Shown here piece after piece: positions 5,458-62,195 of a stretch of DNA of 64,000 nucleotides. A model generated the notes under the pieces. It saw only the letters and a list, made by a program, of their open reading frames with translations, was not told where the DNA came from and made no database searches. The DNA comes from Devosia sp. Root413D1 (lineage in GTDB: Bacteria; Pseudomonadota; Alphaproteobacteria; Rhizobiales; Devosiaceae). Positions within the stretch are counted from its first letter, which is position 1. Every line of letters starts with the position of its first letter. A program made the translations under genes and the position numbers. The stretch is taken from assembly GCF_001425235.1 (NCBI RefSeq), contig NZ_LMEA01000012.1:348391-412390 (forward strand). The letters run 5' to 3'.

Positions 5458-5534
5458 ATGGCGGCGGGCCTCTGCCATGACATGGCGGCGAGAACACCGG
5501 CGGGGGTCACCCGAACGGTGTCGGGAGGGGTGCG

Positions 5535-7578: not shown

Positions 7579-7600
7579 TCGACCGTTCGAGCGCGAGGCG

Positions 7601-7733
7601 CCCCCACCCTAGCTTTGCCAAGGCCCGTTGGGCCTGGCGGCGCTACCCTCCCCGCAAGGGGGAGGGAGAACGTGGGGCACCGGAGGCGCAGTCGGCTCCC
7701 TCCCCCGTTGCGGGGAGGGATCGAGGGTGGGGG
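7601..7733. repeat. Nested GC-rich palindromic repeat (CCCTCCCCGC family)
   Basis: Outer arms CCCCCACCCT (7601-7610) and AGGGTGGGGG (7724-7733) enclose inner arms at 7646-7668 and 7696-7719. The inner arms are reverse complements except for one extra base. Each inner arm is itself a small palindrome around GCAA. It lies between the TIM-barrel gene and the cupin. The same type occurs at 20810-20915, with related elements at 22868-22959 and 23980-24062. Confidence 0.85.
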
Positions 7734-7760
7734 GTGCAGAGCCCCAATGTGGAGAAAACA

Positions 7761-8171: not shown

Positions 8172-8250
8172 GCTTACGTTTCCACTTCCAAGTAACAACT
8201 CCACGCTTTACCCTGAGACAGGGCGCGGTGACTCCGCCTAGGAAGCGGAA

Positions 8251-10014: not shown

Positions 10015-10091
10015 TCGCTTCGCACCAGGACGGCCCGACATACGGTCACAATAGGTTCATATGGAACGGGCACCCCTCCCCCGAGCTATCC

Positions 10092-11027
10092 ATGGGTGCA
10101 CCGATGAACGATCACGAAGCCAAGACCCCGGCCGAACTCGAGCGGATCAAGCAGGCGATCGCCGACGATTTCGACGAAGAGCTGGAAATGCAGATGGAAG
10201 ACGACCGGCTCGATGAGCTGGTCGCCGAGGGGATGTCCGGCCCGGCCGATGATACGATCGACCGCAAGGTGTATTTCCGCGAGCTGTTCCGGCTGCAGCA
10301 CGAGCTGGTGAAGCTGCAGGATTGGGTGGCCTACAAGAAGCTCAAGATGGTGGTGCTGTTCGAAGGCCGCGACTCGGCCGGCAAGGGCGGCGCCATCAAG
10401 CGGGTGACGCAACGGCTCAACCCGCGCGTGGCGCGGGTGGTGGCGCTGCCGGCGCCGACCGAGCGCGAGCGGCACCAGTGGTATTTCCAGCGCTACGTGC
10501 CGCATCTGCCGACGGCAGGCGAAATGGTGCTGTTCGACCGCTCCTGGTACAACCGTGCCGGCGTCGAGCGAGTGATGGGGTTCTGCACGCCGGACGAGCT
10601 CGAAGAGTTCTTCCGCACCGTGCCGGAGTTCGAGCGCATGCTGGTTCGCTCGGGCATCATCCTCGTCAAATACTGGTTCTCGATCACCGACGAGGAGCAG
10701 GAATTCCGCTTCAAAATGCGGCTGCACGATCCGCTGAAGCAGTGGAAACTCAGCCCCATGGACCTCGAAAGCCGGGTGCACTGGGAAGAGTACACCAAGG
10801 CCAAGGAAGAGATGTTCGACCGCACCCACACCGAGGAAGCGCCCTGGTGGGTGGTACAGGCGGTGGACAAGAAGCGGGCGCGGCTCAACTGCATTGCGCA
10901 TCTCTTGAGCCAGGTGAACTACGAGGACGTGCCCAAGCAGGACGTGCAGCTGCCCGACCGGGTGCGGCACGCCGACTACGTGCGCCACGCGGTGAAACCG
11001 GAGCTCTATGTGCCGGAGGCTTACTGA
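10092..11027 (+). CDS. ppk2: Polyphosphate kinase 2 family protein
   Basis: Transfers phosphate between polyphosphate and a nucleotide, typically polyphosphate-driven phosphorylation of a nucleoside diphosphate. About 311 residues from ATG 10092; a second ATG at 10104 is equally possible. The Walker A-like loop FEGRDSAGKGGAIKRV and the lid/Walker B region FDRSWYNRAGVERVMGFC are both present, giving a single-domain (class I type) enzyme. The acidic N-terminal 40 residues are likely flexible. It stands alone, 77 bases after the cyclase gene. Confidence 0.93.
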   Translation: MGAPMNDHEAKTPAELERIKQAIADDFDEELEMQMEDDRLDELVAEGMSGPADDTIDRKVYFRELFRLQHELVKLQDWVAYKKLKMVVLFEGRDSAGKGGAIKRVTQRLNPRVARVVALPAPTERERHQWYFQRYVPHLPTAGEMVLFDRSWYNRAGVERVMGFCTPDELEEFFRTVPEFERMLVRSGIILVKYWFSITDEEQEFRFKMRLHDPLKQWKLSPMDLESRVHWEEYTKAKEEMFDRTHTEEAPWWVVQAVDKKRARLNCIAHLLSQVNYEDVPKQDVQLPDRVRHADYVRHAVKPELYVPEAY

Positions 11028-11144
11028 GCGAGGCTACCCCGCGCCCTAACCCTTCCGTGAGGTCGCAAGAATATCGCCTACACCCCTTTGAGCTGAGATG
11101 CCCCGCTTCATTGTGGGGCAGAGGCCAATCGCTTGACGTGGCTG

Positions 11145-11366
11145 CTAGCTCATCTCTTTGCCATACGCCGCGTAGAATGCGGCCGCGAGGGTCTCGAACC
11201 TGACACTCTGATAGGTTTCCGGCAGGTGATAGGTGATTTTGCCCGGATGCCACTGAATCTTGAGTAGCTTGCGGTCGAGAGTCAGATAGGCGATCGGCGG
11301 GAACAGAAATTCCATGCCGATGCCGATGACGTCGAAGTTCGGCTCCCGGATGAATTCCGGTTCCAT
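11145..11366 (-). CDS. Small hypothetical protein
   Basis: A 73-residue protein with no family I recognise. Start 11366 is chosen because GGAGG sits six bases upstream; an in-frame ATG at 11378 precedes that site. The sequence mixes aromatic and hydrophobic residues (GMEFLFPPIAYLTLDRKLLK), has no signal peptide, and shows the usual coding bias. It faces away from sthA and overlaps no other gene. Confidence 0.6.
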   Translation of the reverse strand: MEPEFIREPNFDVIGIGMEFLFPPIAYLTLDRKLLKIQWHPGKITYHLPETYQSVRFETLAAAFYAAYGKEMS

Positions 11367-11410
11367 CGAAACCTCCATTCACGTTGCCTGCGTCCAGGGT
11401 CAATTGGCGG

Positions 11411-11431
11411 GCATCCCGTCATTCGGGATGC
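11411..11431. other. Perfect 8-bp stem-loop upstream of sthA
   Basis: GCATCCCG (11411-11418), loop TCATT, CGGGATGC (11424-11431). No T-run on either side, so probably not an intrinsic terminator. It lies in the divergent region between the small hypothetical gene and sthA, where it could be a protein-binding site or an RNA structure. Confidence 0.5.
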
Positions 11432-11594
11432 TCAAATCGAACCGACAGTTTGCTTATGATCGTACAGTCTCCCCCGCGCCACAATCTCGGACCTCGTATT
11501 GAGGGCAGAAAGCGCGGTGCATTCCCGCCATGCAGCCTTTGCCATGTGAGCTTCATCTGCCGCGTGCAACAGTCAGTCTCGGGGGACAGCACAC

Positions 11595-12995
11595 ATGGAC
11601 ACTTTCGATCTGATCGTCATCGGCTCGGGTCCGGCCGGGCGGCGGGCGGCTATTCAGGCGGCCAAGCTCGGCAAGGCGGTGCTGGTGGTGGAGAACCGGC
11701 TGCGGGTCGGCGGGGTGTCGGTGCACACCGGCACGATCCCGTCGAAGACGCTGCGTGAAACGGTGCTCAACCTCTCGGGCTGGCGCGAGCGCGGCTTTTA
11801 CGGGCTCGCCTACCGGGTGAAGAAGGAAATCGAGGGCAAGGATCTCGGGGCGCGGCTGCGGATGACGCTCGACCACGAGATCGACGTGCTGGAGCACCAG
11901 TTTGCCCGCAACGGGGTGCGGACGGTGGCCGGGCGGGCCCGCTTCGTCAGCCCGCAGCGGATCGCCATCAAGAACGGCAGCGAGGGCGAAAGCGAATACG
12001 AAGCCGAGCGTTTCGTCATCGCGGTCGGCACGGCGCCGTACCGGCCCAAGCACATCCCGTTCAACCAGGCCAACGTGTTCGACAGCGACGACGTGGCGTC
12101 GGACCCCAAGGTGCCCAGGAGCCTGACGGTGGTGGGCGCCGGGGTGATCGGCATCGAGTATGCGACGATCTTTTCGGCGCTCGACGTGCCGGTGACGCTG
12201 GTAGAACCGCGCGAGAATTTCCTCGAGTTCATCGACCGCGAGATCATCGACGAGTTCGTGCACGAGCTGAGGAAGCGCGGCATGCAGTTGCGCCTTGGTG
12301 TGAAGGTGGAAAAGGTCGAGGTCGACGCCGCCGGCTTTGCCGTGAGCTCGCTGAGCGACGGGCGGCAGATCCGCACCGAGGCGCTGCTCTACTGCGCCGG
12401 CCGGGTCGGCGCGACGGCGGCGCTGGAGCTCGAGGCCTGCGGGCTGACCGCCGACGAGCGTGGACGGCTGACCGTGGACCCGCGGACCTTCCAGACCGCG
12501 GTGCCGCACATCTATGCGGCAGGCGATGTGATCGGCTTTCCCTCGCTCGCCTCCACCTCGATGGAACAGGGGCGGATCGCCGCCTGCCATGCGTTCGGCG
12601 CGCCGATGCCCCCTGCCCCCGAATATTTCCCCTACGGCATCTACGCGGTGCCGGAGATCTCGACGGTCGGGCTGACCGAGCAGCAGCTCAAGGCCAAGGG
12701 CGTCCCCTATGAGTGCGGCGTAGCGCGGTTCCGCGAGACCTCGCGCGGGCACATCATGGGGCTGCAATCGGGGATGATGAAGCTGCTATTCTCGCTCGAC
12801 GATCGCAAGCTCATGGGCTGCCACATCATCGGCGAAGGGGCGACCGAGCTGGTGCATATCGGCCAGGCGGTGCTGAACCTGGGCGGTACGGTCGACTATT
12901 TTGTCGAGAACACCTTCAACTACCCGACCCTCGCCGAAGCCTACAAGATCGCGGCGCTCGATGCGTTCAACCGGATGCCGGGGCGAGCGCACTAA
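11595..12995 (+). CDS. sthA: Soluble pyridine nucleotide transhydrogenase
   Basis: Cytosolic flavoprotein that transfers hydride between NADPH and NAD+. 466 residues, the normal length. The N-terminal FAD site is VIGSGPAGRRAAIQAAKLG and the central NAD(P) site is VVGAGVIGIEYATIF. The related lipoamide dehydrogenases carry a CxxxxC redox pair after GG; here the stretch is GGVSVHTGTIPSKTLRE with no cysteines, the hallmark of SthA. The C-terminal dimerisation domain ends normally. SD GGGGGA lies eight bases before the ATG. Apparently monocistronic. Confidence 0.93.
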   Translation: MDTFDLIVIGSGPAGRRAAIQAAKLGKAVLVVENRLRVGGVSVHTGTIPSKTLRETVLNLSGWRERGFYGLAYRVKKEIEGKDLGARLRMTLDHEIDVLEHQFARNGVRTVAGRARFVSPQRIAIKNGSEGESEYEAERFVIAVGTAPYRPKHIPFNQANVFDSDDVASDPKVPRSLTVVGAGVIGIEYATIFSALDVPVTLVEPRENFLEFIDREIIDEFVHELRKRGMQLRLGVKVEKVEVDAAGFAVSSLSDGRQIRTEALLYCAGRVGATAALELEACGLTADERGRLTVDPRTFQTAVPHIYAAGDVIGFPSLASTSMEQGRIAACHAFGAPMPPAPEYFPYGIYAVPEISTVGLTEQQLKAKGVPYECGVARFRETSRGHIMGLQSGMMKLLFSLDDRKLMGCHIIGEGATELVHIGQAVLNLGGTVDYFVENTFNYPTLAEAYKIAALDAFNRMPGRAH

Positions 12996-50026: not shown

Positions 50027-50098
50027 TTGTCATTCGGCCCGCCCCACCGATAATGGTCTGGCTACGTACGCGCAGTGATGTACGAACTGGTTAGTTTA
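50027..50098 (+). promoter_or_regulatory. tetR promoter with second operator copy
   Basis: TTGTCA (50027-50032) and TAATGG (50051-50056) are spaced by 18 bp, facing the tetR gene. The site TGTACGAACTGGTTAGTTTA (50079-50098) has one perfect half (TGTACGAA) and one degraded half. It lies just downstream of the expected transcription start and between tetR and the divergent aroE gene, so it could affect both. Confidence 0.6.
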
Positions 50099-50137
50099 GT
50101 CAATCTCTCCGTCGGGAGGGACGGAGGAACGGCTTAC

Positions 50138-50815
50138 ATGGCGCCCAAGGCCGCAAAACCCGAGGCTCAGAGCGGGGTCCGCACCCAGGACCCCGAGGGC
50201 ACGCGGCACAACATCATCGAAGTCGCCTCGGAGGAGTTCGCCCTCAACGGCCTGTCCGGCGCCCGAATCGACGAGATCGCGGCACGCACCCGGTCGTCCA
50301 AGCGGATGATCTATTATTACTTCGGCGACAAGGAAGGCCTCTACCTGGCGGTGCTGGAGAACGCCTATCGCAAGGTTCGCGAGGGCGAGGCCAAGCTCGA
50401 CATCGGCGGGCTGTCGCCGCTAGATGCGCTGCGCCGGCTGGTGGAATTCACCTTCGAGCATCACCACAAGCATGAGGATTTCATCCGCATGGTGATGATC
50501 GAGAACATCCACCATGCCGAGTACCTGGAGAAATCCAAAGTCATCCGGCAGCTCAACGTCACCGCCATCGGGACCATCGAGACGATCTATGAGCGCGGTG
50601 TGGCCGAGGGGTTGTTTCGCGCCGGGCTCGACCCGATCGAATTGCATTGGCAGATCAGTGCGCTGTGCTTCTTCAACGTTTCCAATCGAGCGACGTTCTC
50701 CAAGCTCTTCGGCCGTGACCTGAGCACTTCCAAAGCCCAGGCCGTATTGAAGCGCAACTCGGTGGACATGGTGCTTCGATACATCGTCCGCCCGGAGAAA
50801 CTGCCGACCGAATAG
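50138..50815 (+). CDS. TetR-family regulator of quinate/shikimate genes (inferred)
   Basis: A 225-residue regulator. ATG 50138 follows GGAGG by ten bases. The N-terminal helix-turn-helix spans about residues 24-70 with ARIDEIAARTRSSKRMIYYY. The C-terminal part (about 85-215) is a ligand-binding domain without known effector. It lies between aroE and quiC, and operator-like repeats occur upstream of itself, quiC and the TRAP-pca operon. I infer that it represses all three and is released by a pathway intermediate. Confidence 0.88.
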   Translation: MAPKAAKPEAQSGVRTQDPEGTRHNIIEVASEEFALNGLSGARIDEIAARTRSSKRMIYYYFGDKEGLYLAVLENAYRKVREGEAKLDIGGLSPLDALRRLVEFTFEHHHKHEDFIRMVMIENIHHAEYLEKSKVIRQLNVTAIGTIETIYERGVAEGLFRAGLDPIELHWQISALCFFNVSNRATFSKLFGRDLSTSKAQAVLKRNSVDMVLRYIVRPEKLPTE

Positions 50816-50831
50816 CCATGCGGGCGGTAAC

Positions 50832-50883
50832 TTGACCGCAACCCGATCAGTCTCTACCGATTATGTACGAACTAGTTCGTTTA
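50832..50883 (+). promoter_or_regulatory. quiC promoter with third operator copy
   Basis: TTGACC (50832-50837) with TACCGA 17 bp downstream is a plausible promoter. Next comes TGTACGAA-CTAG-TTCGTTTA (50864-50883), with six of eight arm positions paired, immediately before the quiC ribosome site. A repressor there would block the start region. Confidence 0.7.
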
Positions 50884-50895
50884 TTGGAGGAGACG

Positions 50896-52782
50896 ATGCG
50901 GACCTCGATTGCCACGGTCTCGATCAGTGGCGAGCTCCCCGACAAGCTTGCTGCCATCGCGGCTGCCGGCTTTGACGGGGTCGAGATCTTCGAGAACGAC
51001 TTCCTCGCCTTCGACGGCAGCCCGGCAGACGTCGGCCGGATGGTGCGCGACCACGGCCTCGAGATCTGCCTGTTCCAGCCGTTCCGCGACTTCGAGGGTA
51101 TGCCGCCATCGCACCGGCAACGCACCTTCGATCGCGCCGAGCGCAAGTTCGACGTCATGCAGGAGCTCGGAACGGACCTGCTGCTTGTCTGCTCCAATGT
51201 CTCGACCTTGGCGCTGGGCGGCATCGACCGGGCGGCCGACGACTTTCGTGAGCTGGGGGAACGTGCCGGCAGGCGCGGGCTGCGCGTCGGTTATGAGGCG
51301 CTGGCCTGGGGCAAGCACATCAACGACCACCGCGATGCCTGGGAAATCGTGCGGCGAGCCAACCATCCCAATATCGGCCTCGTGCTCGACAGCTTCCACA
51401 GCCTGTCCCGCCGCATCGAGATCAACTCGATCCGCTCGATCCCCAGGGAGAAGCTGTTCATCGTTCAACTGGCCGATGCGCCGCAGATCGACATGGACCT
51501 GCTGTACTGGAGCCGCCACTTCCGCAACATGCCCGGCGAAGGGGATCTGCCGGTGGCCGAGTTCACCGCGGCCGTGGTCGATACCGGCTATAACGGCTAC
51601 TTCTCGCTGGAGATCTTCAACGATCAGTTTCGTGGGGGTTCGCCGCGATCGATCGCTGCAGACGGTCACCGCTCCCTCATTTACCTCGGCGATCGAGTGC
51701 GCCGCTCGACCGGGTCGGAGACGTTGCAGCTCGAGCCGATACCCGACCGCATCGAGGTCAAGGGCGTCGCTTTCGTCGAATTCTCAGCCGATGCGGCCGA
51801 TGCCCTCAACCTCGGCGCACTGCTGACCACGCTGGGCTTCACGAGGATCGCCGAGCACCGCTCCAAGCAGGTGACCCTCTACCAGCAGGGCGAGATCCGG
51901 ATCATCATAAATACCGAGGGTTCCGGCTATGCGCACACCGCCTTCAAGTTGCACGGAACGTCGGCCTATGCACTGGCCCTCATCGTCGACGACGCCAGCG
52001 CGGCCATGGCCCGGGCGCTTGCCCTGGGCGCCGAGCAATTCCAGCAAGCCGTAGCGCCAGATGAACTCGAGATCCCGGCCATCCGCGGGATCGGCGAAAG
52101 CCTGCTCTATCTCGTCGATGGCACCAGCAAGCTGGGCCGGTTTCAGCAGATCGATTTCGAACCAGCCGGTCTCGATTTCGAGGAACTGCCGCGACCAGCC
52201 GGCCTCAACAGCATCGACCACCTGGCGCAAACCGTTCCCTATGACCAGATGCCGACCTGGCTGCTGTTCTACAGCTCGATCTTCCTGGCCGACAAAACCC
52301 CGATGGTGGATATCGTCGACCCTTCGGGGGTCGTCCGCAGCCAGGTGATCGAGAATAGCTCGGGGGCGCTCCGCATCACCATGAACGGCGCCGAAAACAG
52401 TGCGACCCTCGCTGGCCACTTCCTCGCCGACAAGCTCGGCTCAGCCATCCAGCACATCGCCTTCGCAACGAGCGACATCTTCGCCAGCGCCGCCGCTCTC
52501 GACAGCAACGGCTTCCGCTCGCTGCAGATCTCGCCGAACTACTACGACGACGTGGAAGCCCGCTTCGGCCTCGAACCTGAGTTCACCGACCGGCTGCGCA
52601 AGCACAACATCCTCTACGACCGCGATGAGTGGGGCGAGTACCTGCAGCTCTACAGCACCACCTTCGGCCAGGGCTTTTTCTTCGAAGTGGTGGAGCGCCG
52701 TGGCTACCGCGGCTACGGCGCCGCCAACGCCATCTTCCGGATCGCCGCGCTGAAGAAGGCTATCCGCCGGCTTGCCAGCTAG
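50896..52782 (+). CDS. quiC: 3-dehydroshikimate dehydratase with C-terminal HPPD-like domain
   Basis: Converts 3-dehydroshikimate to protocatechuate, the link from quinate/shikimate to the pca pathway. 628 residues; ATG 50896 follows GGAGGAGACG. Residues 1-280 form a sugar-isomerase-like TIM barrel with the metal quartet Glu134, Asp165, Gln191 and Glu239. Residues 290-628 form a 4-hydroxyphenylpyruvate-dioxygenase-like domain with an intact ferrous site, His442, His520 and Glu597. This two-domain layout is that of QuiC1 from Pseudomonas. The role of the second domain is not settled. Confidence 0.94.
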   Translation: MRTSIATVSISGELPDKLAAIAAAGFDGVEIFENDFLAFDGSPADVGRMVRDHGLEICLFQPFRDFEGMPPSHRQRTFDRAERKFDVMQELGTDLLLVCSNVSTLALGGIDRAADDFRELGERAGRRGLRVGYEALAWGKHINDHRDAWEIVRRANHPNIGLVLDSFHSLSRRIEINSIRSIPREKLFIVQLADAPQIDMDLLYWSRHFRNMPGEGDLPVAEFTAAVVDTGYNGYFSLEIFNDQFRGGSPRSIAADGHRSLIYLGDRVRRSTGSETLQLEPIPDRIEVKGVAFVEFSADAADALNLGALLTTLGFTRIAEHRSKQVTLYQQGEIRIIINTEGSGYAHTAFKLHGTSAYALALIVDDASAAMARALALGAEQFQQAVAPDELEIPAIRGIGESLLYLVDGTSKLGRFQQIDFEPAGLDFEELPRPAGLNSIDHLAQTVPYDQMPTWLLFYSSIFLADKTPMVDIVDPSGVVRSQVIENSSGALRITMNGAENSATLAGHFLADKLGSAIQHIAFATSDIFASAAALDSNGFRSLQISPNYYDDVEARFGLEPEFTDRLRKHNILYDRDEWGEYLQLYSTTFGQGFFFEVVERRGYRGYGAANAIFRIAALKKAIRRLAS

Positions 52783-53014: not shown

Positions 53015-53182
53015 ATGACGGCGCTGCCGGAGGCGGCGGCCAAGACCGATGCGCCGGTCGGCGTGCCGAGCTTCACCACCGAGGAATTGTTCGGTGGCGC
53101 CACCGAGATCGGCATCGCGCACCAGGGCCTCACCTACCGGCTGCGGATCACGCGGCAGGGCAAACTCGTCCTCAACAAATAG
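53015..53182 (+). CDS. hemP: Hemin uptake protein HemP
   Basis: A 55-residue protein with the HemP core: FTTEELFGGATEIGIAHQG and YRLRITRQGKLVLNK at the C-terminus. ATG 53015 follows GAGG. HemP proteins are small, iron-regulated members of heme-uptake operons, and some are reported as activators of receptor expression. It is first in the run hemP, signal-peptide protein, exbB, exbD, tonB. Confidence 0.9.
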   Translation: MTALPEAAAKTDAPVGVPSFTTEELFGGATEIGIAHQGLTYRLRITRQGKLVLNK

Positions 53183-53190
53183 GAGCGCCC

Positions 53191-53616
53191 ATGCGCCTCA
53201 CCCATGCATTGCTGCTGGCGACGCTGTGCGCCACGCCGACCCTGGCCCAGGACGCCCCGGCGGCTCCCGGCCTGGCGCTGGAACTCAACGCGCTGACCCC
53301 GAGCGAAACCGGCTGTCGCGTCACCTTCCTCGCCACCAACAGGCTCGGCACCGAGCTCACCCGCTCGGCCTTCGAAATTGCGCTGTTCGGCGCCGGCGGC
53401 GGTATTGAGCGGTTGGTGTCGCTGGATTTCAAGGCGATGCCCGAGGGCAAGACCCGGGTGCTGCAGTTCGATATCGGCGAGCTCGGCTGCGACAAGGTGA
53501 GCCGGGTGCTGATCAATGACGTGGTGGCCTGCGAGGGCACGGGGCTCGATCCGAAGGTCTGCCTTAGTGGCCTCAGCACCGTGTCGCGCCTCGATGGCGT
53601 GGAGTTCGGCATCTGA
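53191..53616 (+). CDS. Periplasmic hypothetical protein in the heme/TonB operon
   Basis: A 141-residue protein with a signal peptide (LLLATLCATPTLAQ, cleavage near residue 19) and four cysteines in the mature part, consistent with two disulfides. ATG follows TAGGAGCGCCC. It shares one base with the exbB start (TGATG). I do not recognise a named family. The position suggests a periplasmic accessory of the Ton system. Confidence 0.8.
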   Translation: MRLTHALLLATLCATPTLAQDAPAAPGLALELNALTPSETGCRVTFLATNRLGTELTRSAFEIALFGAGGGIERLVSLDFKAMPEGKTRVLQFDIGELGCDKVSRVLINDVVACEGTGLDPKVCLSGLSTVSRLDGVEFGI

Positions 53617-54332
53617 TGGAAACGGTGATCGAAGCGGTGGAGCCGGTTGCGGCGGCGCACGACATGTCGATGTTCGCGCTGTTCATGCAGGCGGACTGGG
53701 TGGTGAAGTCGGTGATGCTGGGGCTGCTGTTCGCCTCGATCGCCTGCTGGGCGGTGATCTTCGCCAAGGCTGCCGCCTATGCCCGCGCCAGGCGCGAGAT
53801 GAAGGCATTCGACAAGATCTTCGCCTCGGGCGAGCCGCTGAACCAGATCTACGCCCGGCTGAAGGACGGCCCGCGCACCGGGCTCGGCGCGCTGTTCGCG
53901 GCGGCGATGGAAGAATGGAACGGCAGCCATGCCGACAATGCTGCCAATTCGGGCGGCCTGCAGGCGCGGCTCCGCATCGTGCTCGACACCACGGTGGCGG
54001 CCGAGAGCGAGAAGCTCGATCGCAGCCTGTCGCTGCTTGCGACAGTGGGGAGCGCGGCGCCGTTCGTCGGGCTGTTCGGCACGGTGTGGGGTATCATGAA
54101 TGCCTTCACTTCGATCGCCGCGGCGAAATCCACCAGCCTCGCCGTGGTGGCGCCCGGCATCGCCGAGGCGCTGTTCGCCACGGCGCTCGGGCTGCTCGCC
54201 GCCATTCCGGCGGTGATTGCCTACAACAAGCTCAGCGGCGACGCCGGGCGGCTGATCGGCCGGCTCGAGGCGTTCGCCGACCGGGTCTCGGTACTGCTGT
54301 CGCGGCAGCTCGATGCGCGGGGGAATGCCTGA
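53616..54332 (+). CDS. exbB: Ton-system proton-channel subunit ExbB
   Basis: Inner-membrane motor subunit that with ExbD energises TonB, 238 residues. Three helices are visible at about 26-45, 145-167 and 185-205, with the conserved AAPFVGLFGTVWGIMNAF and ATALGLLAAIPAVIAYN segments of the MotA/TolQ/ExbB family. Linkage to hemP and tonB rather than tolB/pal argues for ExbB over TolQ. Confidence 0.93.
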   Translation: METVIEAVEPVAAAHDMSMFALFMQADWVVKSVMLGLLFASIACWAVIFAKAAAYARARREMKAFDKIFASGEPLNQIYARLKDGPRTGLGALFAAAMEEWNGSHADNAANSGGLQARLRIVLDTTVAAESEKLDRSLSLLATVGSAAPFVGLFGTVWGIMNAFTSIAAAKSTSLAVVAPGIAEALFATALGLLAAIPAVIAYNKLSGDAGRLIGRLEAFADRVSVLLSRQLDARGNA

Positions 54333-54766
54333 TGAGCATGTCGCTGCAGAGTGCACGTGGGAAGCGCGGCCGACGTGGGGCGATCAGCGAGATCAACATG
54401 ACGCCGCTGGTCGACGTGATGCTGGTGCTGCTGATCGTCTTCATGGTGACGGCGCCGCTGCTGACCTCGGGTGTGCCGATCGACCTGCCGCAGAGCAACG
54501 CGCCGGAGATGAAGGTCGAGGGGACGAAGCCGCTCACCATCTCGGTGACGCCGGAAGGCCAGGTCTATCTCGGCGAAGACGAAATCTCGCTCGAGACGCT
54601 GCTGAGTTCAGTGGCGGCAGCGGCGGGCGACGCCGGCACGCAGCAACGGCTCTACATCCGGGGCGATGCGACCGCCGATTACGGGCTGATCATGCAGGTG
54701 ATGGGCGATTTGAGCCGCGCCGGCTATGCCCGCATCGGGCTGATCACGCAGCAGCGCGAACCGTAA
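54332..54766 (+). CDS. exbD: Ton-system subunit ExbD
   Basis: A 144-residue partner of ExbB with a single N-terminal helix holding the essential proton-carrying Asp in TPLVDVMLVLLIVFMV (near residue 28) and a periplasmic ExbD/TolR domain. ATG overlaps the exbB stop by one base. Confidence 0.93.
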   Translation: MSMSLQSARGKRGRRGAISEINMTPLVDVMLVLLIVFMVTAPLLTSGVPIDLPQSNAPEMKVEGTKPLTISVTPEGQVYLGEDEISLETLLSSVAAAAGDAGTQQRLYIRGDATADYGLIMQVMGDLSRAGYARIGLITQQREP

Positions 54767-54767
54767 G

Positions 54768-55910
54768 ATGAAGAAGGCCGCCCTCGCTTCTGCCAGCATC
54801 CATATCGGCCTGATCGCCGGGGCGTTCGTGTTCCTGAACCTCGAGCCTGCGATCGACGAAACGGCGGCGGAATCGGTGGCGGTCGAGATCATCTCGGTCG
54901 ACACGGCGACCAGCAATCCGACCGAGGAGATCAGCGAAGCGACCGAGACGCTGGTCTCGGCTGGTGCCGAGGTCGAGGCCGAAGAAGTACCGGAGACTGC
55001 CGAGGCCGAAATGGTCGAGGTGGCGGAGGCCCAACCGGCCAAGGCGGTCGAAGCCGTAGCGGCGCCGGTCGAGGTCGCCGAGATCACGCCGGCCGAGAGT
55101 GAGGAGATCGCCTCGGCCGAGGTGCTCACCGCGGCGGCGGATCCGATCGCGCCGGTTGAGGCGGCGATGCCGCAGCTGGTCGACGGCGCGGCGACGGTGG
55201 TTGCCGACAGCGTGGCGCCGTCGCCGTCCGATCCGCTCGAAGAGGTACGCACTGCGACCGTAGCTCAGCTGACGCCCGAGCCGGCAATGCAGCAGATCCC
55301 GCCGGCACTGGTGCAGCCGGTGGAGGTGGTGAAGCCGCTGGAGACGGCAAGCCTCGCCCCGGTGGTCGAAGACGAGTTGCGGGTGGCGCCGATCCCCAAG
55401 CCGCGCATCGTCCGCAAGCCGGTCGAGGCGAAAGCCGAGCCGGCGAAGGAACCGCCCAAGGACCAGCCGGCTGAAAAGCCGAAGCAGGTGAAAAAAACGG
55501 CCGAGAAAAAGCCGGAGAAGAAGAAGCCGTCGCAGCAGGCCAGCCTCGGCAACGGCGGCGCGGCCGAGGCCGATACCGCGGCAAAGAAATCCGGCGGTGG
55601 CGCCGGCAAGAAGAATGACGGCGGCAGCGCGGCGGCGAGCAAATACCCCGGCCTGGTGCAGGCCAAGGTCACCCGTGCCGCCAAGTACCCTTCGAAGGCG
55701 CGCGGCGATGCGGGCGAAGCTTTGGTGAGCTTTACCGTCGGCGCCAGTGGTACAGTGACGAAAGTCGCGCTCGCCCGCAGTTCGGGAAACGATGCGCTCG
55801 ACCATGCCGCGCTGGCGGCCGTCGACCGCGCCGCGCCCTTTCCCCCGATTCCCGAGGCAGCGGGACGATCGAGCTGGTCGTTCACCGTGCCGGTCTATTT
55901 CAAGAAGTGA
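54768..55910 (+). CDS. tonB: Energy transducer TonB
   Basis: A 380-residue TonB. One membrane helix (about 5-24), then an unusually long acidic, Glu/Ala-rich stretch (about 30-175), then a Lys/Pro-rich stretch (about 205-270), and a C-terminal TonB domain (about 295-380, YPSKARGDAGEALVSFTV). The acidic part makes it longer than the usual 240-280 residues. It follows exbD after one base. Confidence 0.92.
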   Translation: MKKAALASASIHIGLIAGAFVFLNLEPAIDETAAESVAVEIISVDTATSNPTEEISEATETLVSAGAEVEAEEVPETAEAEMVEVAEAQPAKAVEAVAAPVEVAEITPAESEEIASAEVLTAAADPIAPVEAAMPQLVDGAATVVADSVAPSPSDPLEEVRTATVAQLTPEPAMQQIPPALVQPVEVVKPLETASLAPVVEDELRVAPIPKPRIVRKPVEAKAEPAKEPPKDQPAEKPKQVKKTAEKKPEKKKPSQQASLGNGGAAEADTAAKKSGGGAGKKNDGGSAAASKYPGLVQAKVTRAAKYPSKARGDAGEALVSFTVGASGTVTKVALARSSGNDALDHAALAAVDRAAPFPPIPEAAGRSSWSFTVPVYFKK

Positions 55911-55918
55911 GTTCGCAG

Positions 55919-56716
55919 ATGACCGAAGACAAGAAGAAGGACGTGCTGCTCGAGACCACCGCCGATGCGGTGCGCGAGGCCAAGACGCTGATCCGCTCGG
56001 CGCGCTCGGGCTCGATCGCGACGATCGAGCCGGGGACCGGCTGGCCGATCGCCACCCGCGTCGGGGTCTCGACCGATTATGACGGCGCGCCGATCATCCT
56101 GATCTCGAAGCTGGCCGCCCATACCGGCGCCCTGCTCGCCGATCCGCGCTGCTCGCTGCTGATCGGCTATCCGGGCAAGGGCGACCCGCTGGCGCATGCC
56201 CGCGTCACCATCGCCGCAGAAGCGCGCGAAGTGGAGCGCGACAGCCAAGAGCACCAGCGGCTCGACACGCGCTACCTGATCCACCAGCAGAAGGCCAAGC
56301 TCTATTCGGGCCTCGGCGATTTCCGCTACTTCCGGCTGGAGCCGAAGAGTGCCTCGTATAATGGCGGGTTCGGCCGCGCCTATGCGCTGACCCGCGAGCA
56401 GCTCCTCAACGCCAACCCGGCCAATCCGGAGCTGGCGGCGAGCGAGCCGGATGCCATCGAGCACATGAACGACGACCACGGCGAGGCCGTCGGGCTTTAT
56501 GCCGAGCACTTCGCCAAGGCGGCCCCGGGCAACTGGCGGCTGATCGGCGTCGATGCCGAAGGCATGGACCTCGCCGATGGCGACGATATCCGCCGCATCT
56601 GGTTCGAGAGTGAACTCACCTCGTCCAAGGACATGCACACAACGCTGGTGAAGATGGCCGGCGAAGCGCGCCGAGCGCTCAATCGGCCGTTGAAGGACGC
56701 GAGGGTTGCGTCGTGA
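55919..56716 (+). CDS. HugZ-like heme-utilisation protein (split-barrel plus DUF2470)
   Basis: A 265-residue protein with an N-terminal FMN-binding-like split barrel (pyridoxamine phosphate oxidase fold, about 15-165) and a C-terminal DUF2470 domain marked by EHMNDDHGEAV near residue 185. This combination is that of HugZ, a heme-binding, heme-degrading enzyme. A GTG at 55907 overlapping the tonB stop is an alternative start. Its place between tonB and the receptor gene supports a role in freeing iron from heme. Confidence 0.87.
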   Translation: MTEDKKKDVLLETTADAVREAKTLIRSARSGSIATIEPGTGWPIATRVGVSTDYDGAPIILISKLAAHTGALLADPRCSLLIGYPGKGDPLAHARVTIAAEAREVERDSQEHQRLDTRYLIHQQKAKLYSGLGDFRYFRLEPKSASYNGGFGRAYALTREQLLNANPANPELAASEPDAIEHMNDDHGEAVGLYAEHFAKAAPGNWRLIGVDAEGMDLADGDDIRRIWFESELTSSKDMHTTLVKMAGEARRALNRPLKDARVAS

Positions 56717-57228
56717 AGGCTCTGATCTCCGCCGCGCTGCTGCTCATGGCGTCGCCGGCGCTGGCGCAACAGGCGGCGCTGCCGGGTGGCGCCTCGGCGC
56801 TGAACGAGGCGCATGGCAGCTGGACGGTGAACTGCGCGCTGGTCGAAGCGGGCAAGGACTGTGCCTTCTCGCAGACGGCGGGCAACCCGCAGACCGGCAG
56901 CGCGCTGGTGGCCGTCGAGCTGGCAGCCCCCACCGGCAACAAGGCCGAGGGCATGCTGCTGACGGCATTCGGGCTCAGGCTCGATGCCGGGGTGCAGCTC
57001 GGCATCGACGGCCAGCAACTGGGGCAGGCCCGGCCGTTCCTCACCTGCGTCGAGACCGGGTGCCTGGTGCCGCTCGATTTCGACGAGGTGGCGCTCAGCG
57101 CCATGAAGGTCGGCACGATGCTCGAAGTCACCGGGGTCAAGGTCGACGACGGACAGCCGGTCACCGTGACCCTGTCGCTCGCCGGCTTCACCGCTGCCTA
57201 CAACCGCACGGCGGAACTGGCGCAATAG
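56713..57228 (+). CDS. IalB-family periplasmic protein
   Basis: A 171-residue protein of the invasion-associated locus B family. Signal peptide ends near SPALAQ-Q at 19. The mature part has four Cys in two close pairs (NCALVEAGKDC and TCVETGC). GTG start overlaps the stop of the HugZ-like gene (GTGA). The family has a link to virulence in Bartonella, but its biochemical role is unknown; here it is part of a heme operon. Confidence 0.85.
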   Translation: MKALISAALLLMASPALAQQAALPGGASALNEAHGSWTVNCALVEAGKDCAFSQTAGNPQTGSALVAVELAAPTGNKAEGMLLTAFGLRLDAGVQLGIDGQQLGQARPFLTCVETGCLVPLDFDEVALSAMKVGTMLEVTGVKVDDGQPVTVTLSLAGFTAAYNRTAELAQ

Positions 57229-57252
57229 TCAAAGCGTCGCAGCGTTTAATCT

Positions 57253-57267
57253 TGACTCAGATACTCA
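57253..57267 (+). promoter_or_regulatory. IRO-box-like site upstream of the TonB-dependent receptor
   Basis: TGACTCAGATACTCA matches TGA-N9-TCA, the same core as at hemP, inside the AT-richer stretch TTGACTCAGATACTCATCTT that precedes TAATAG. It is 111 bases before the receptor ATG. Confidence 0.5.
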
Positions 57268-57378
57268 TCTTTAATAGAGCGTGAACACCGGCCCGTGGAG
57301 GGCCATGGAACAGCAAGCCAAGCGGCGTGCGGCGCGCCGACAGCCAGCCAACAACTTCGGTTTCATTCGGGGGCAGGC

Positions 57379-59688
57379 ATGTCTTATCGGCCGCATGTCG
57401 CGCGTGCACTGGCACGCGCGAATATCTCACCTTGGCATCTCATCGGCATCAGCGTCGCGGCGCTGCTCTGCGCGGTTCCGCAGCCGGTCGCGGCGCAGGA
57501 GCTGACCAATGCGCAGACCACCATCCTCAGGCGGATCACGGTGACCGCCGCGCGCGGCACCAAAAGCGTGCTGGATGTGCCGCAGAACGTCACCGTCATC
57601 GACGCCAAGACGCTGGAGCAGCATCAGGTCCGCGATACTCAGGACCTCGTTCGCTATGAGCCCGGCATTTCGGTGGATCGACAGACATCGATCACCAATC
57701 CCTTCAGCCAGCTGACCGGCTTCACGATCCGTGGCGTCAGCGGCAACCGCGTGCAGATGCTGGTCGACGGCAGCCGTATCCAGGAGCGGATCACCGATGG
57801 CAGCCGTGACTTCGTCGACCCCTGGAACATGAAGGCAGTCGAGCTGATCCGCGGGCCGAACTCAGTGTTGTGGGGTGCCGATGCGCTGGGCGGGACGGTG
57901 GCGTTCCGCACCCGCGACCCCTCCGACCTGCTGGACGGTCAGGACAAGCCCTGGGCGCTCGAAGTCAAGACGGCGTTCGACAGCTATGACAACAGCTTCC
58001 GCAAGCAGGTGACCGGAGCCTACGACTTTGGCAACGGGCTGCAGATCCTTGGCAGCTTCGGCCACATGTCGGCGACAGAAGCGCAACTCACCAAGGGCTA
58101 TGCAGACGGCGGCATCTGGGGGTGCCGGCGCGAAAGCATCTGGCCGTGCAACAAGCTGTTCCCGGCCGAGACCGACGCCTACAATAGTCTGTTCAAGGCG
58201 GTGTACACGCCGAACGACGCGCACACCTTCACCTTTACCGCCGAGGGACAGAGCCGCCGCACTGAGATCGATCAGAAGTTCGACTCGAGCGCCATCAGCT
58301 ACACTACCTCGACGAACGGGCCGGCTCGGCCGACCCCGGTGATCAACTACATCAGTGAATATTACGACAGGGTCCTCGACATGGACCGCACGCGGCTGGC
58401 CTTCGAGCACCAGTGGCAGGTCAACGCCGGGTGGCTCGACAGCGTCAAGTGGAACGTCTCCTACTCGCCGCAGCAGCGCAACACCACCAGCAACCAGTTG
58501 CGGACCTACCCAACCCGGACAGACCTGGTCTACCAGCTACGCGAATACGGTGAGACGTTCTACGAGGGCGATCTGCAGCTAACCTCCAGCTTCGACTGGG
58601 GCTGGTCGTCGCATCGGCTGACCTACGGTTTCGACGGTGACTACACCTTCAGCAACATCAACGGCGTCAACCGGACCGACAGCAACGGCATCCCGGGGAC
58701 ACCGTCGACCAGCATCAGCTTTCCTGATGTCGAGACGGTTCGTGCCGACCTCTACCTGCAGGACGAGATCGAGATGCTTGAGGGTCGGCTGACGCTGACG
58801 CCAGGCGTTCGCTTTGCCACATACAGCATCGACCCGACGGCGGACTCCTCGTTCCCGGGCCTACCGGGCTTCACGCCCGAAAAGATCGACAGCACGCGGT
58901 TGCTGAAGCGGATGGGCGGTATCTTCAAGCTGACCGACGAGTACTCGCTCTATGGCTCGTACGGCGAAGGCTTCAAGATGCCGACGGCGTCTCAGCTCTA
59001 CCAGGGCAGCAACTTCGGCAGCTCCATCCTCGTGCCCAATCCGACGCTGCGACCGGAGTCGGTGGTCAGCTACGAAGCAGGCGTGCGCGGCAACTTCGAG
59101 CGCGGCTACTTCAGCGTTGGCGGCTTCTACTCCGAGTACAAGGACTTCATCCGCGGCCTGCAGTTGAAGCCCGGTACGACCAACCAGTACTGGTCGGATA
59201 ACATCGACACCGTCCGCCTCGCGGGTATCGAAGCCTCGGCAGAGTTTGAGGTGTTCGAGAATCTCTTTGCCACCGGTTCGCTGACCTACACCACCGGTGT
59301 GCAGCAGGTGAGCGCCACGGCTCCGGAGACGGCCTTCGATGGCGCCGTGCCGCTCACCGTGGTTGCCGGCCTCCGCTACGAAATCCCCGACAATGGGCTC
59401 GAGTTCGAGGTTATCGGCACGTTCGCCGACGGCGTCAGGGAGCGCAGCGATCCCAATGCCTTTAAGCCCGCAGGCTACGCGGTATTCGACGCGTTCGCCA
59501 AGTGGCAGCCGCAGGAGAACATCGAGCTCACCGCCGGCATCCTCAATATCTTCGACACCCGCTACTTCCCCAATACGCTGACCAACTACAACAACACGGC
59601 TGGCATCGACACGGCGAACCAGAACCCGCTCGAACTGCAGGTTGCGCCGGGCCGGACCTTCAAGGTTGGGGCCAAGGTCACCTTCTAA
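57379..59688 (+). CDS. TonB-dependent heme-type outer-membrane receptor
   Basis: Outer-membrane receptor, 769 residues from ATG 57379 (GGGGGCAGG upstream). Signal peptide cleaves near PVAAQ-E; a plug domain (about 60-170) and 22-strand barrel follow, ending in F. The hemoglobin/heme receptor pair appears as EGFKMPTASQ and VPNPTLRPES (FRAP and NPNL-like), but no His lies between them, where many heme receptors have one. Genes around it are for heme use. Confidence 0.9.
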   Translation: MSYRPHVARALARANISPWHLIGISVAALLCAVPQPVAAQELTNAQTTILRRITVTAARGTKSVLDVPQNVTVIDAKTLEQHQVRDTQDLVRYEPGISVDRQTSITNPFSQLTGFTIRGVSGNRVQMLVDGSRIQERITDGSRDFVDPWNMKAVELIRGPNSVLWGADALGGTVAFRTRDPSDLLDGQDKPWALEVKTAFDSYDNSFRKQVTGAYDFGNGLQILGSFGHMSATEAQLTKGYADGGIWGCRRESIWPCNKLFPAETDAYNSLFKAVYTPNDAHTFTFTAEGQSRRTEIDQKFDSSAISYTTSTNGPARPTPVINYISEYYDRVLDMDRTRLAFEHQWQVNAGWLDSVKWNVSYSPQQRNTTSNQLRTYPTRTDLVYQLREYGETFYEGDLQLTSSFDWGWSSHRLTYGFDGDYTFSNINGVNRTDSNGIPGTPSTSISFPDVETVRADLYLQDEIEMLEGRLTLTPGVRFATYSIDPTADSSFPGLPGFTPEKIDSTRLLKRMGGIFKLTDEYSLYGSYGEGFKMPTASQLYQGSNFGSSILVPNPTLRPESVVSYEAGVRGNFERGYFSVGGFYSEYKDFIRGLQLKPGTTNQYWSDNIDTVRLAGIEASAEFEVFENLFATGSLTYTTGVQQVSATAPETAFDGAVPLTVVAGLRYEIPDNGLEFEVIGTFADGVRERSDPNAFKPAGYAVFDAFAKWQPQENIELTAGILNIFDTRYFPNTLTNYNNTAGIDTANQNPLELQVAPGRTFKVGAKVTF

Positions 59689-59701
59689 CCACACCTACTC
59701 C

Positions 59702-59737
59702 GCGGGAGGGCCTCGTCCATGGCTCTCCCGCTTTTTT
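59702..59737 (+). terminator. Intrinsic terminator after the receptor gene
   Basis: GCGGGAG (59702-59708) pairs with CTCCCGC (59725-59731), with extra GGCC/GGCT pairing inside, followed by TTTTTT. The hairpin lies 13 bases after the receptor stop. It also overlaps the first possible start of the next gene, which supports the later start there. Confidence 0.85.
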
Positions 59738-59757
59738 GTTATCCGGAGATCCTCGTC

Positions 59758-61467
59758 ATGACCCGCGTGCTTGGCCAGTTCTGGCGCCTTCTGGGGCTCT
59801 GCATCAGCGGGCGGGGCGGCAAGCTCGGGCTGGCACTGTTCGTTGCCGTCGTGGCGCTGAAGCTGCTGGGCGTCTACGCGACGCTGAGGATCATCTCCTG
59901 GACCAAGGATTTCTACTCGGCGCTGGAGGCGGTGGATGCCAAGGCGGCGCTCACGCAGATCGGAATTTTCGGCATCATCGTGCTGCTGAACTCGATCCGC
60001 GAACTTAGCTCGCAATATCTCAACAAGCTGGTGCTGATCCGCTGGCGCAGGTCGCTGACCGAGGCGGTGCGCGACCGCTGGCTGCGTGGCAAGGCCTATT
60101 GGCGGATGGCCGACGGCAGTGGGGTGGACAACCCCGACCAGCGCATCGCCGACGACTGCCGGCTGTTCGTCAGCGGCATGCTGAGCGAGGCGCTCGACCT
60201 CATCACCAATATCGTCGCCATCTTCTCCTACGTGGCGCTGCTCTGGCAGCTGTCGTCGTTTCCGCTGTCGTTGGCCTTCATCGGCATCGACTTCGAGATC
60301 CCGCGCTACATGCTGGTCGCGGCGTTCGTCTATGTCGGGCTCTGCTCGCTGCTGACCCATGTGCTCGGCAGCCCGCTGAAGGCGCTGTATGTCGAGCAGC
60401 AGCGGCGCGAAGCAGACTTCCGCTTTGCCCTCGCCCGGATGCGCTCCAATGTCGACGAGATCGCGCTGCTCAACGGCGAAGGCGCCGAGCGCCGTACGCT
60501 CGACCAGCGTTTTGGTGGGATCATCGGAAATTGGCGCCGACTGATCAATCGCGAGCTGATCCTCAGTTGCTTCACCTACCCCTACCAGCACACCGTGCTG
60601 CGCATTCCGCTGTTCGTGGCGTTGCCCGCCTTCCTCGCCGGCAGCGTCAATTTCGGCGGGCTGATGGAGGTGAGCACGGCGTTCTCGAGCGTCGTGACCA
60701 CGCTCTCGTGGTTCATCTTCTCGTATCGCGACCTTGCGGACCTCGTTGCGGCATCGTCCCGTCTCGACGGGTTCCTGCGCTCGACCGAGGGCAATGGCGG
60801 CGCAGCACCGGTGGTGCAGCCGGGAAACGGGCCGCTGCGCATCTCGGGGCTCAATCTGACGCTGCCGGATGGCCGGGCGCTGCTCGGCGTCGACAACCTC
60901 ACGGTCAATCGCGGTGAAGCGGTGTGGCTGGCGGGCGCCTCGGGACTGGGGAAGACCACTCTGGTCAAGGCAATCGCCGGGCTCTGGCCACATGCCAATG
61001 GCCGGATCGAGACACCCGCCGGCAGCATGCTGTTCCTGCCGCAGCGCACCTATGTGCCGATCGGCGACATCATGGAGGCCGTAGCCTATCCGGCGACCGC
61101 CGAGGCGTTCTCGCCCGAGGTGCGCAAGGCAGCGCTGGAGGCCGTGGGCCTCGGCAATCGGCTCGATGTGACGCTCGGCACCGGCGAGACCGGCACGGGT
61201 GGTCTGTCGGGTGGCGAGTTGCAGCGGCTGGCGCTGGCGCGGCTGCTGCTCCATCGGCCGGATTTCGCCTTCCTCGATGAAGCCACCAGCGCGCTCGACG
61301 TCGCCGCCGAGACCGAGCTCTTGGCGCTGCTGCGCAGCGAACTGCCCGACAGCGCTTTCATCCTCGTCGCCCATCGGAAGCCCCAGGGCCTCGGCACGCT
61401 CACCACCGTGGAACTGGGCGCCACTCCGGCTGCTCCGGCCACGCCTCTCGAACCCATACTTGCCTAA
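59758..61467 (+). CDS. Single-chain ABC transporter of the SbmA/BacA-like ABC_membrane_2 family, candidate heme importer
   Basis: A 569-residue fusion of an N-terminal membrane domain (about six helices, residues 1-320) and an ATPase domain. Walker A is GASGLGKTT near 396, the signature LSGGELQRL near 482, and Walker B FLDEATSALD near 503. The membrane part has the FYSALEAVDAKA and NPDQRIADD stretches typical of the YddA/Rv1819c/BacA-like group. Located between a heme receptor and a HemS-like gene, it is a candidate for inner-membrane uptake. Confidence 0.88.
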   Translation: MTRVLGQFWRLLGLCISGRGGKLGLALFVAVVALKLLGVYATLRIISWTKDFYSALEAVDAKAALTQIGIFGIIVLLNSIRELSSQYLNKLVLIRWRRSLTEAVRDRWLRGKAYWRMADGSGVDNPDQRIADDCRLFVSGMLSEALDLITNIVAIFSYVALLWQLSSFPLSLAFIGIDFEIPRYMLVAAFVYVGLCSLLTHVLGSPLKALYVEQQRREADFRFALARMRSNVDEIALLNGEGAERRTLDQRFGGIIGNWRRLINRELILSCFTYPYQHTVLRIPLFVALPAFLAGSVNFGGLMEVSTAFSSVVTTLSWFIFSYRDLADLVAASSRLDGFLRSTEGNGGAAPVVQPGNGPLRISGLNLTLPDGRALLGVDNLTVNRGEAVWLAGASGLGKTTLVKAIAGLWPHANGRIETPAGSMLFLPQRTYVPIGDIMEAVAYPATAEAFSPEVRKAALEAVGLGNRLDVTLGTGETGTGGLSGGELQRLALARLLLHRPDFAFLDEATSALDVAAETELLALLRSELPDSAFILVAHRKPQGLGTLTTVELGATPAAPATPLEPILA

Positions 61468-61478
61468 GGATCCCTGCA

Positions 61479-62195
61479 ATGCTCGACACGTTAGCCCCTT
61501 TGCCCACCACCCTGCCTCGTGCCCGCCTCGATGCCAGCGCCCGCGATGTGCTCCTTACCCTCCCCGCCATCGGCAGGCTGATGGTGACGGCGCGACACCT
61601 CGGCGCCACGCATGAGCGGATCGGCGCGGTCGAGAGCGTCAGCTTCGAGGACGGCTGGGCGGTGATCGGTGGGGCCGAGCACGAGAGCCGGATCGAACTG
61701 GCAAGTGTCGCCGAGATCATCGTCGACCGCACCAGCGTGATGAAGGACAAGGCCTATCCGCGCATCGACCTGAACCGCGCCGATGGCAGCTATATCTGTG
61801 GCATCGTCGGCTTCGACGGGATCGAGCCGTTCGATGCGGCTGTGGCGCCGCTCGGCATCGGCACTGCCATCGAAGCCAAGCCCGACACGCCCCCGGGTGA
61901 GCGCATCGAGGCGAACGAAACCGACCCCGGCCGGCTGCCGCTCGAGGATGCGCATGCGGCGCAAGCGCAGGTGGTGATCGGCTTCCGGCGCCCCGGCTTC
62001 CAGCAGTTCTGGCGCGGCACCATCGAGACGGTGAAGCCGGCAATGGGCTTCATCAACGTGATGCGCTCGGATTTCCACCTGCACCTCAAGGCGGGCGCGG
62101 TGGCCGAGTGGCACCGCGACTCGGTGACCGGCGAACGCGAGGCATTCAATGCCGACGGCGAGCCGCTGGGGCTGACGCTGCTGCGGGCGAACTAG
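61479..62195 (+). CDS. HemS/ChuX-like heme-handling protein, short form
   Basis: A 238-residue cytosolic protein. The stretch VMKDKAYPRIDLNRADGSYICGIVGFDGIEPF near residues 87-118 resembles one repeat of HemS/HmuS hemin-degrading proteins, which normally have two such repeats in about 340 residues; only one complete repeat plus a second partial one seem present. It follows the ABC gene after 11 bases. Probably binds or degrades imported heme. Confidence 0.8.
   Translation: MLDTLAPLPTTLPRARLDASARDVLLTLPAIGRLMVTARHLGATHERIGAVESVSFEDGWAVIGGAEHESRIELASVAEIIVDRTSVMKDKAYPRIDLNRADGSYICGIVGFDGIEPFDAAVAPLGIGTAIEAKPDTPPGERIEANETDPGRLPLEDAHAAQAQVVIGFRRPGFQQFWRGTIETVKPAMGFINVMRSDFHLHLKAGAVAEWHRDSVTGEREAFNADGEPLGLTLLRAN

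Follow-up and report, generated by a model that had tools for sequence, protein, structure and literature searches.

We analysed a window of 64,000 nucleotides from Devosia sp. Root413D1, in which positions 53015-62195 carry a heme-uptake locus whose TonB-dependent receptor gene is followed by a gene for a one-chain ATP-binding cassette transporter with fused membrane and ATPase parts (here called the ABC) and by a gene for a short HemS-type protein, HemS2. On balance, we favour the explanation that this locus is a dedicated second, self-contained heme-uptake route based on an ABC of the FusD/YddA/Rv1819c type. In such a route, the receptor, driven by TonB-ExbBD, would bring heme, or a compound that bears heme, through the outer membrane into the periplasm, and the fused ABC, working as a homodimer with the exporter (type IV) fold, would carry the cargo inward with no binding protein of its own, much as Rv1819c imports cobalamin. 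Cytoplasmic HemS2, with ChaN in many relatives and a HugZ-like protein in some, would then take over the heme. The route would usually work beside the importer HmuTUV, and in a few genomes it may be the sole dedicated route. We infer the cargo, the inward direction, the homodimer and the hand-over to HemS2; the folds of HemS2 and the ABC are those of predicted models.

Linkage of the ABC to HemS2 and to heme-class receptors

A pattern scan for the ABC, with one genome each for 84,980 species, gave 70 loci, and two weak matches to the nucleotide-binding domain (NBD) only (L084 and L085) were removed before all locus counts, leaving 68. At distances of up to 7 kb from the ABC, 60 of the 68 loci carry a receptor that belongs to the heme-receptor cluster, 53 HemS2, 44 ChaN (Cofac_haem_bdg, PF04187) and 10 a member of the IalB cluster; loci L050, L075 and L079 end at contig ends. 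Apart from the ABC, no inner-membrane transporter belongs to the conserved gene set. PF04187 was confirmed in L020, L058 and L032, and ChaN is not found in the window's locus. The single PF04187 match of the Devosia genome lies at G000:C11:490897-491520 (L100), on a different contig from the heme locus. The Pseudomonas and Yersinia loci instead have two clusters of five loci each, one of FusA-like receptors and one of M16 proteases (confirmed with Pfam in L073 and L078). The system ranges from Alphaproteobacteria to Alcaligenaceae, and a metagenome-assembled genome (MAG) of Endomicrobium has it with the ABC gene split.

In a survey of 297 genomes drawn from the order, the scores of the transmembrane domain (TMD) of the ABC were bimodal, at least 326 bits in 20 genomes and at most 224 bits in the next group. 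HemS2 of at least 260 bits was found in 19 of the 297 genomes, all of them among the 20 with the ABC (19/20 versus 0/277), and in 19/19 it lay -2 to 906 bases from the ABC TMD match. The first-pass annotation of the window had named poor conservation of the ABC-HemS linkage as a point that would speak against its reading; a distance within 1 kb in 19/19 indicates that the linkage is conserved. In G149, the ABC genome without HemS2, receptor and ABC are accompanied by a weak match to ChaN (67 bits). Six genomes of family f15 have HemS2-like genes of lower score (179-194 bits) that are unlinked to an ABC match, and no receptor lies near the f15 loci L111-L113 (180-194 bits). We treated these genes as a separate, orphan use and, because they are unlinked, limit the statement that HemS2 occurs only with the ABC to scores of at least 260 bits. 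The order sample includes 12 further genomes from the window's family, none of which gave an ABC match, and the system is therefore patchy. The 20 survey genomes overlap in part with the 50 genomes reached through the loci (described below), and the two samples are thus not independent; many share a genus, and several are MAGs.

The receptor open reading frame (ORF) opens at 57295, and the ATG at 57379 yields a signal peptide by inspection. The receptor scored above both curated cut-offs, with 330.1-330.3 for TIGR01786 (cut-off 323.75) and 325.9-326.1 for TIGR01785 (cut-off 316.85). We scanned 34 receptors, the window's and 33 of the 60 linked ones, and 33 of the 34 matched both models below 1e-60, the sole exception being that of the Endomicrobium MAG (L058, 4.9e-55). 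The curated cut-offs of both models were not always reached, with L054 and L067 passing one each. The receptors of L055 and L067, both among the 33, share 21-22% identity with the window's receptor, and HugZ-like genes lie nearby at these two loci. Judged from sequence, the heme class is kept where the receptor lineage changed. A Cys pair (residues 249 and 257 when numbered from the ATG at 57379) is present in 55 of 57 receptor rows and absent from HmuR of the window's genome; the pair may close a loop through a disulfide and thereby mark a different ligand.

HemS2 as a short HemS-type protein

HemS2 scored over the gathering score of PF05171, with a match that covers residues 16-79 only. The predicted model has a mean pLDDT of 94.6, and its nine best Foldseek matches were all ChuS, PhuS and HemS entries, with TMq of 0.72-0.76 and rmsd of 6.8-10.0 over the whole length. 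The PF05171 score and this predicted double-repeat fold place HemS2 in the HemS family. In a profile alignment to HemS, both repeats are kept and the linker is shortened, and HemS2 differs from HemS, PhuS and ChuS in being about two thirds as long (238 aa, compared with ~354 aa for the genome's own HmuS) and in its partial recognition by PF05171. Each of the residues H45, H68, H200 and H202 is found in 50-55 of the 55 rows, which contain the window's gene twice (from the window and as L098). By a hydropathy rule applied to script-guessed starts, a hydrophobic N-terminus was found in 1/53 HemS2 and 2/44 ChaN proteins, compared with 8/10 for the control IalB. Because it is mostly absent, we read HemS2 and ChaN as cytoplasmic.

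Two side observations concern HemS-type genes. The HemS2 ORF of L018 (11854-13122) has 422 aa with a TsaD-like C-terminal stretch, either a fusion or an assembly effect. In Aureimonas altamirensis, locus L134 (5037-7791) carries hemP-hmuT-hmuU-hmuV and gave no PF05171 match at E 0.001, and HemS2 may be the sole HemS-type protein of this organism.

Family, fold and grouping of the ABC

The ABC has the features of YddA/BclA/Rv1819c-type proteins: ABC_membrane_2 (the TMD) and ABC_tran lie in one chain, and the ATPase motifs are intact (Walker A, the LSGG signature, Walker B/D-loop and H-loop). Its start is more likely at 59758 (Met14), which is conserved in 30/32 rows. The best PDB match by profile was Rv1819c (6tqe, 443.7 bits), and the same structure was the nearest fold of the predicted model (pLDDT 87.7, TMq 0.78, rmsd 5.4). 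The earlier label of SbmA/BacA-like is loose: the TMD shows homology through PF05992 (72.8 bits), but the protein failed the SbmA equivalog model (69.9 of 492 bits) and has an NBD. A protein that passes this model is encoded elsewhere in the genome (L099, 509.3 of 492). On sequence grounds, the ABC belongs among the NBD-bearing YddA/FusD/Rv1819c-type transporters.

A quick maximum-likelihood tree with a midpoint root, built from 77 ABC proteins, placed the heme-linked ABCs in one clade of 56 rows (SH-aLRT 100). Together with five Fus-type ABCs (61 rows), they split from 16 others (SH-aLRT 97), which are 15 lower-scoring relatives and L075. The Fus-type ABCs in the tree are those of Pseudomonas and Yersinia rather than the products of the fus and ydd genes themselves. 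The tree leaves out L050, L079, L058, L082, L017, L046 and L048 (cut, split or near-duplicate) and L118; a long-branch warning applies to L121, one L126 row and L078, and the grouping is relative to the 16 other rows. At the 15 lower-scoring ABC loci fetched, some of them short, a profile built from this receptor class, HmuR and FusA found a receptor at one. It therefore seems that linkage to a receptor is characteristic of the group formed by the Fus-type and heme-linked ABCs. In the TMD, C147, R295 and P288 are among the positions that at least 29 of the 32 clade rows share and that the 4 Fus-type rows lack. The ABC is split into two ORFs at L058 (9998-11686) and at L082, where the receptor is split likewise (6776-11772), through either decay or sequencing error.

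An Rfam scan of the window, L020, L024 and L039 gave no match, and hence no cobalamin riboswitch. Cobalamin as the cargo, by analogy with Rv1819c, is disfavoured by this result in four sources and by the heme-class receptors. A search with an Irr-box consensus that allowed up to 3 mismatches gave no match in the window. Across 52 upstream regions, two from the window and the rest from 50 loci, the best matches to consensus Irr, Fur and RirA-like boxes were only slightly better than those to shuffles.

Gene content of the locus

The ten genes from hemP to HemS2 lie on a single strand with short intergenic gaps:

53015..53182, + strand: hemP, hemin uptake protein, with the ATG at 53015 (PF10636, 53.7 bits)
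53191..53616, + strand: orf141, 141 aa, signal-peptide-like start by inspection, unassigned to any family
53616..54332, + strand: exbB, TolQ/ExbB type (PF01618, 119.8 bits)
54329..54766, + strand: exbD, TolR/ExbD type, start codon not fixed (PF02472, 102.1 bits)
54768..55910, + strand: tonB (PF03544, 48.7 bits; TIGR01352, 70.8 with cut-off 27.1)
55907..56716, + strand: HugZ-like protein, PNPOx split barrel with DUF2470 (PF10615, 61.8 bits; PF01243, 49.7 bits)
56713..57228, + strand: ialB-like gene, signal peptide by inspection (PF06776, 84.5 bits)
57379..59688, + strand: TonB-dependent receptor of the heme/hemoglobin family (TIGR01786, TIGR01785)
59719..61467, + strand: the fused ABC, 582 aa, ABC_membrane_2 TMD with NBD (PF06472, 168.3 bits; PF05992, 72.8 bits; PF00005, 65.5 bits)
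61479..62195, + strand: HemS2, short two-repeat HemS, 238 aa (PF05171, 37.9 bits with cut-off 24)

Family models recovered all of the genes that the first-pass annotation had listed (hemP, exbB, exbD, tonB, the HugZ-like and ialB-like genes, receptor, ABC and HemS) in place and on the + strand. Its statement that no binding protein, BtuC-type permease or separate ATPase is encoded here was also borne out: among the ten scanned proteins of 53015-62195 there was no periplasmic binding protein, FecCD permease or stand-alone ATPase, and no M16 protease. Binding-protein, FecCD and ATPase genes occur at other places in the genome. The closest relative, the Devosia sp. 66-14 MAG (L016), has an identical gene order and an ABC that is 92% identical.

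No Pfam or NCBIfam match at E 0.01 was obtained for orf141. Its relatives occur in L016 and adjoining exbB in two divergent hmuTUV loci, L101 (Labrys; 5149-5577) and L102 (same genus; 6214-6642), making orf141 a candidate periplasmic partner of heme-linked TonB systems. The ExbB-like protein passed TIGR02796 tolQ (264.7, cut-off 221) and narrowly missed TIGR02797 exbB (205.5, cut-off 206.2); for the exbB/exbD pair, the TolQ and TolR models outscore the ExbB and ExbD models, with TolQ alone above its cut-off. The HugZ-like protein was far under the equivalog cut-offs for HugZ (49.3 of 240) and HutZ (43.9 of 225), and the name is used because of its PNPOx and DUF2470 architecture. Upstream of the locus, at 50075-52782, lie a gene for a TetR regulator and a TIM-barrel and HPPD-like fusion gene (AP_endonuc_2 and Glyoxalase_5), whose layout we take to be that of a QuiC-type 3-dehydroshikimate dehydratase.

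Coexistence with HmuTUV

In the assembly that contains the window (5.85 Mb in 14 contigs, 100% complete, 2.29% contaminated), profile searches identified a complete hmuSTUV set with a heme receptor on contig C8 (10.1-16.3 kb). HmuV reached 306.8 bits with NF010068 (cut-off 261), HmuU 304 bits with FecCD, the two-domain HmuS 289.6 bits with PF05171 and the receptor 385.9 bits with TIGR01785, and HmuT matched Peripla_BP_2. The full set of binding protein, FecCD permease and separate ATPase that makes up an HmuTUV-type importer is present at C8 and not at the locus. The first-pass annotation had placed the ABC in the position of HmuTUV, which is right for the locus but wrong for the genome: with hmuSTUV on C8, replacement at the genome level is rejected, and the hmuTUV elsewhere that had been named as a refuting finding exists, as far as presence goes. 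It had also suggested a survey of related genomes for a receptor-ABC-HemS linkage without hmuTUV, and this is the exception among relatives, 46/50 of which carry HmuTUV-type genes, with no HmuU found in four.

These 50 genomes were reached via the 53 HemS2 loci minus L017, L022 and L048. Devosia riboflavina (L020, G300), for example, has both systems. The search for HmuU was negative in four genomes with the system, those of Devosia limi (L032), Hansschlegelia beijingensis (L072), the Devosia sp. 66-14 MAG and an uncultured Rhizobiales MAG (L018). Their best FecCD match was 168-206 bits, compared with at least 246.7 bits for HmuU in eight other genomes searched. The FecCD genes of the four are mostly nearer to the window genome's other FecCD genes (C11, C7 and C12) than to its HmuU. 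In Devosia limi, a hemP-hmuS-exbB-exbD-tonB set lies divergent beside receptor-ABC-HemS2-ChaN-IalB. In Hansschlegelia, an ATPase gene, a FecCD gene and then a receptor-like ORF lie beyond the ABC (L139, 7995-10582). Taken together, the system normally adds to HmuTUV and may occasionally stand alone.

Several observations weigh against a dedicated heme route through the ABC. Periplasmic heme already has a route in the window's own genome, which has HmuTUV. Of the 50 relatives with ABC-HemS2, 43 have HmuV over the cut-off, with the best 41 candidates scored per genome, and three more have divergent hmuTUV loci (Aureimonas altamirensis, Neomegalonema and Labrys); the 43 rest on HmuV, with HmuU checked in four (G300, G303, G318 and G334) and HmuT in none. 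In the order survey, in which the best 8 candidates per genome were scored and misses are possible, HmuV was over the cut-off in at least 120/297 genomes and was commoner with the ABC (at least 14/20 versus at least 106/277; Fisher p = 0.008, kinship uncorrected). Among the four genomes in which HmuU was not found are two MAGs whose completeness is not stated, and FecCD and ATPase genes lie about 3 kb from the ABC of Hansschlegelia, with HmuU as the best match among references, at a weak 164 bits; their cargo could be heme or a siderophore. In the profile alignment, HemS2 is without the HemS segment bearing His196, the axial heme ligand of Y. enterocolitica HemS; the HemS2 linker has no conserved His, and other conserved His residues could serve as the ligand. 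No heme-ligand residue was identified in the ABC TMD, where no His is clade-specific and the single conserved one, H214, is kept just as well in four Fus-type relatives. Dipeptide permeases can also carry heme. Finally, E. coli YddA of the same family is reported to be an ATP-driven drug exporter (PMC9728188).

Points on the other side concern direction and cargo. The inward direction would follow from the location inferred for the partner proteins and from the precedent of Rv1819c, whose deletion is reported to abolish corrinoid uptake (PMC3603451), and a metabolomics study is reported to favour uptake by YddA (PMC10971958). The first-pass proposal that the ABC imports heme or a heme product gains support from the heme-class receptors, the ChaN linkage and the four genomes without HmuU, and it is a function that we infer.

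Other explanations for the ABC

Given that HmuTUV-type genes are present in 46/50 genomes, the ABC might instead be an importer in the same pathway whose cargo is not free heme, which would be left to HmuTUV. Peptide-attached heme, a modified tetrapyrrole or the released non-heme part of a hemoprotein would be such cargo. This explanation, to which we give a clearly smaller though still appreciable probability, would account for the coexistence. It is consistent with the receptor Cys pair (55/57 rows, absent from HmuR) and with the Fus-type relatives, which sit with a receptor and an M16 protease. Family members are reported to import peptides or cobalamin (PMC13316013, PMC3603451), and FusD is, in the sources that mention it, hypothesised to carry a released iron-sulphur cluster (PMC5095587, PMC6793856). 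However, the conserved set has no protease, HemS2 and ChaN come from heme-binding families, and in four genomes no HmuU was found that would import free heme.

A bolder form of the heme-import explanation would make the ABC a new class of heme importer, a one-chain exporter-fold homodimer without a binding protein for cargo that HmuTUV cannot take, such as peptide-bound or modified heme. Such cargo would explain why the ABC is retained beside HmuTUV-type genes in 46/50 genomes, stands alone in a few and recurs widely; we consider this class rather unlikely.

It is less probable again that the ABC is an exporter relieving the stress of heme, porphyrin or breakdown products that arises from heme uptake. 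The predicted exporter-type fold, the drug export reported for E. coli YddA (PMC9728188) and the co-occurrence with HmuTUV would fit with this function. On the other hand, the ABC is tightly linked to an importer of the outer membrane and to heme-handling proteins that we regard as cytoplasmic, while a receptor was found at just 1/15 of the lower-scoring relatives (some loci short, with a class-limited profile). In addition, no outer-membrane efflux partner was present among the identified recurrent clusters, systems without HmuU would export without an importer, and Rv1819c is reported to import (PMC3603451). That HmuTUV does all inner-membrane heme transport and the ABC is a broad peptide or drug transporter travelling with the receptor is very improbable: HmuTUV is present in the genome, but the HemS2-ABC linkage is 19/19 and linkage to heme-class receptors is kept across receptor lineages (L055, L067).

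Relation to known systems

The favoured heme route resembles several known systems in part. A TonB-dependent receptor adjoining a fused ABC_membrane_2 ABC is the arrangement of the Fus/Ydd systems, known from fusABCD of Pectobacterium and yddA-yddB-pqqL of E. coli (PMC5095587, PMC6793856). The locus shares the receptor and fused ABC side by side but has no M16 protease in the operon. The Fus-type loci L073 and L078 carry this protease and receptors without an NCBIfam match at 1e-20, whereas in their place the heme-linked loci have HemS2, ChaN or HugZ-like proteins and heme-class receptors. Rv1819c, the nearest structure by sequence and predicted fold, similarly combines TMD and NBD in one chain with no binding-protein gene alongside; it carries cobalamin, while no cobalamin link was found here and the locus is linked to heme instead. 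SbmA/BacA (SLiPT) share TMD homology, but SbmA has no NBD. The HmuTUV/PhuTUV/BhuTUV importers share the position in the pathway between a heme receptor and a HemS-type protein, and they differ in having a binding protein, a BtuC-type permease and a separate ATPase; they usually coexist with the system in one genome. The heme-linked clade is thus a variant of the receptor and YddA-family ABC arrangement, and is neither strict SbmA/BacA nor HmuTUV.

Bacterial inner-membrane heme import is described as relying on binding-protein-dependent HmuTUV-type and promiscuous ABC transporters (PMC11442138). No description of the present gene set was found in the open-access literature, among the titles, abstract starts and passages of top-ranked results. 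YddA-family ABC transporters are still termed 'of unknown function' in a 2026 study (PMC13316013). For one clade of this family, the almost invariable genomic association with heme proteins points to a specific substrate that can be tested, and Devosia limi, without a recognised HmuU, is a candidate test organism. The system may represent a second chemistry of heme import, and if the ABC does carry heme, it would be a new way for heme into the cell.

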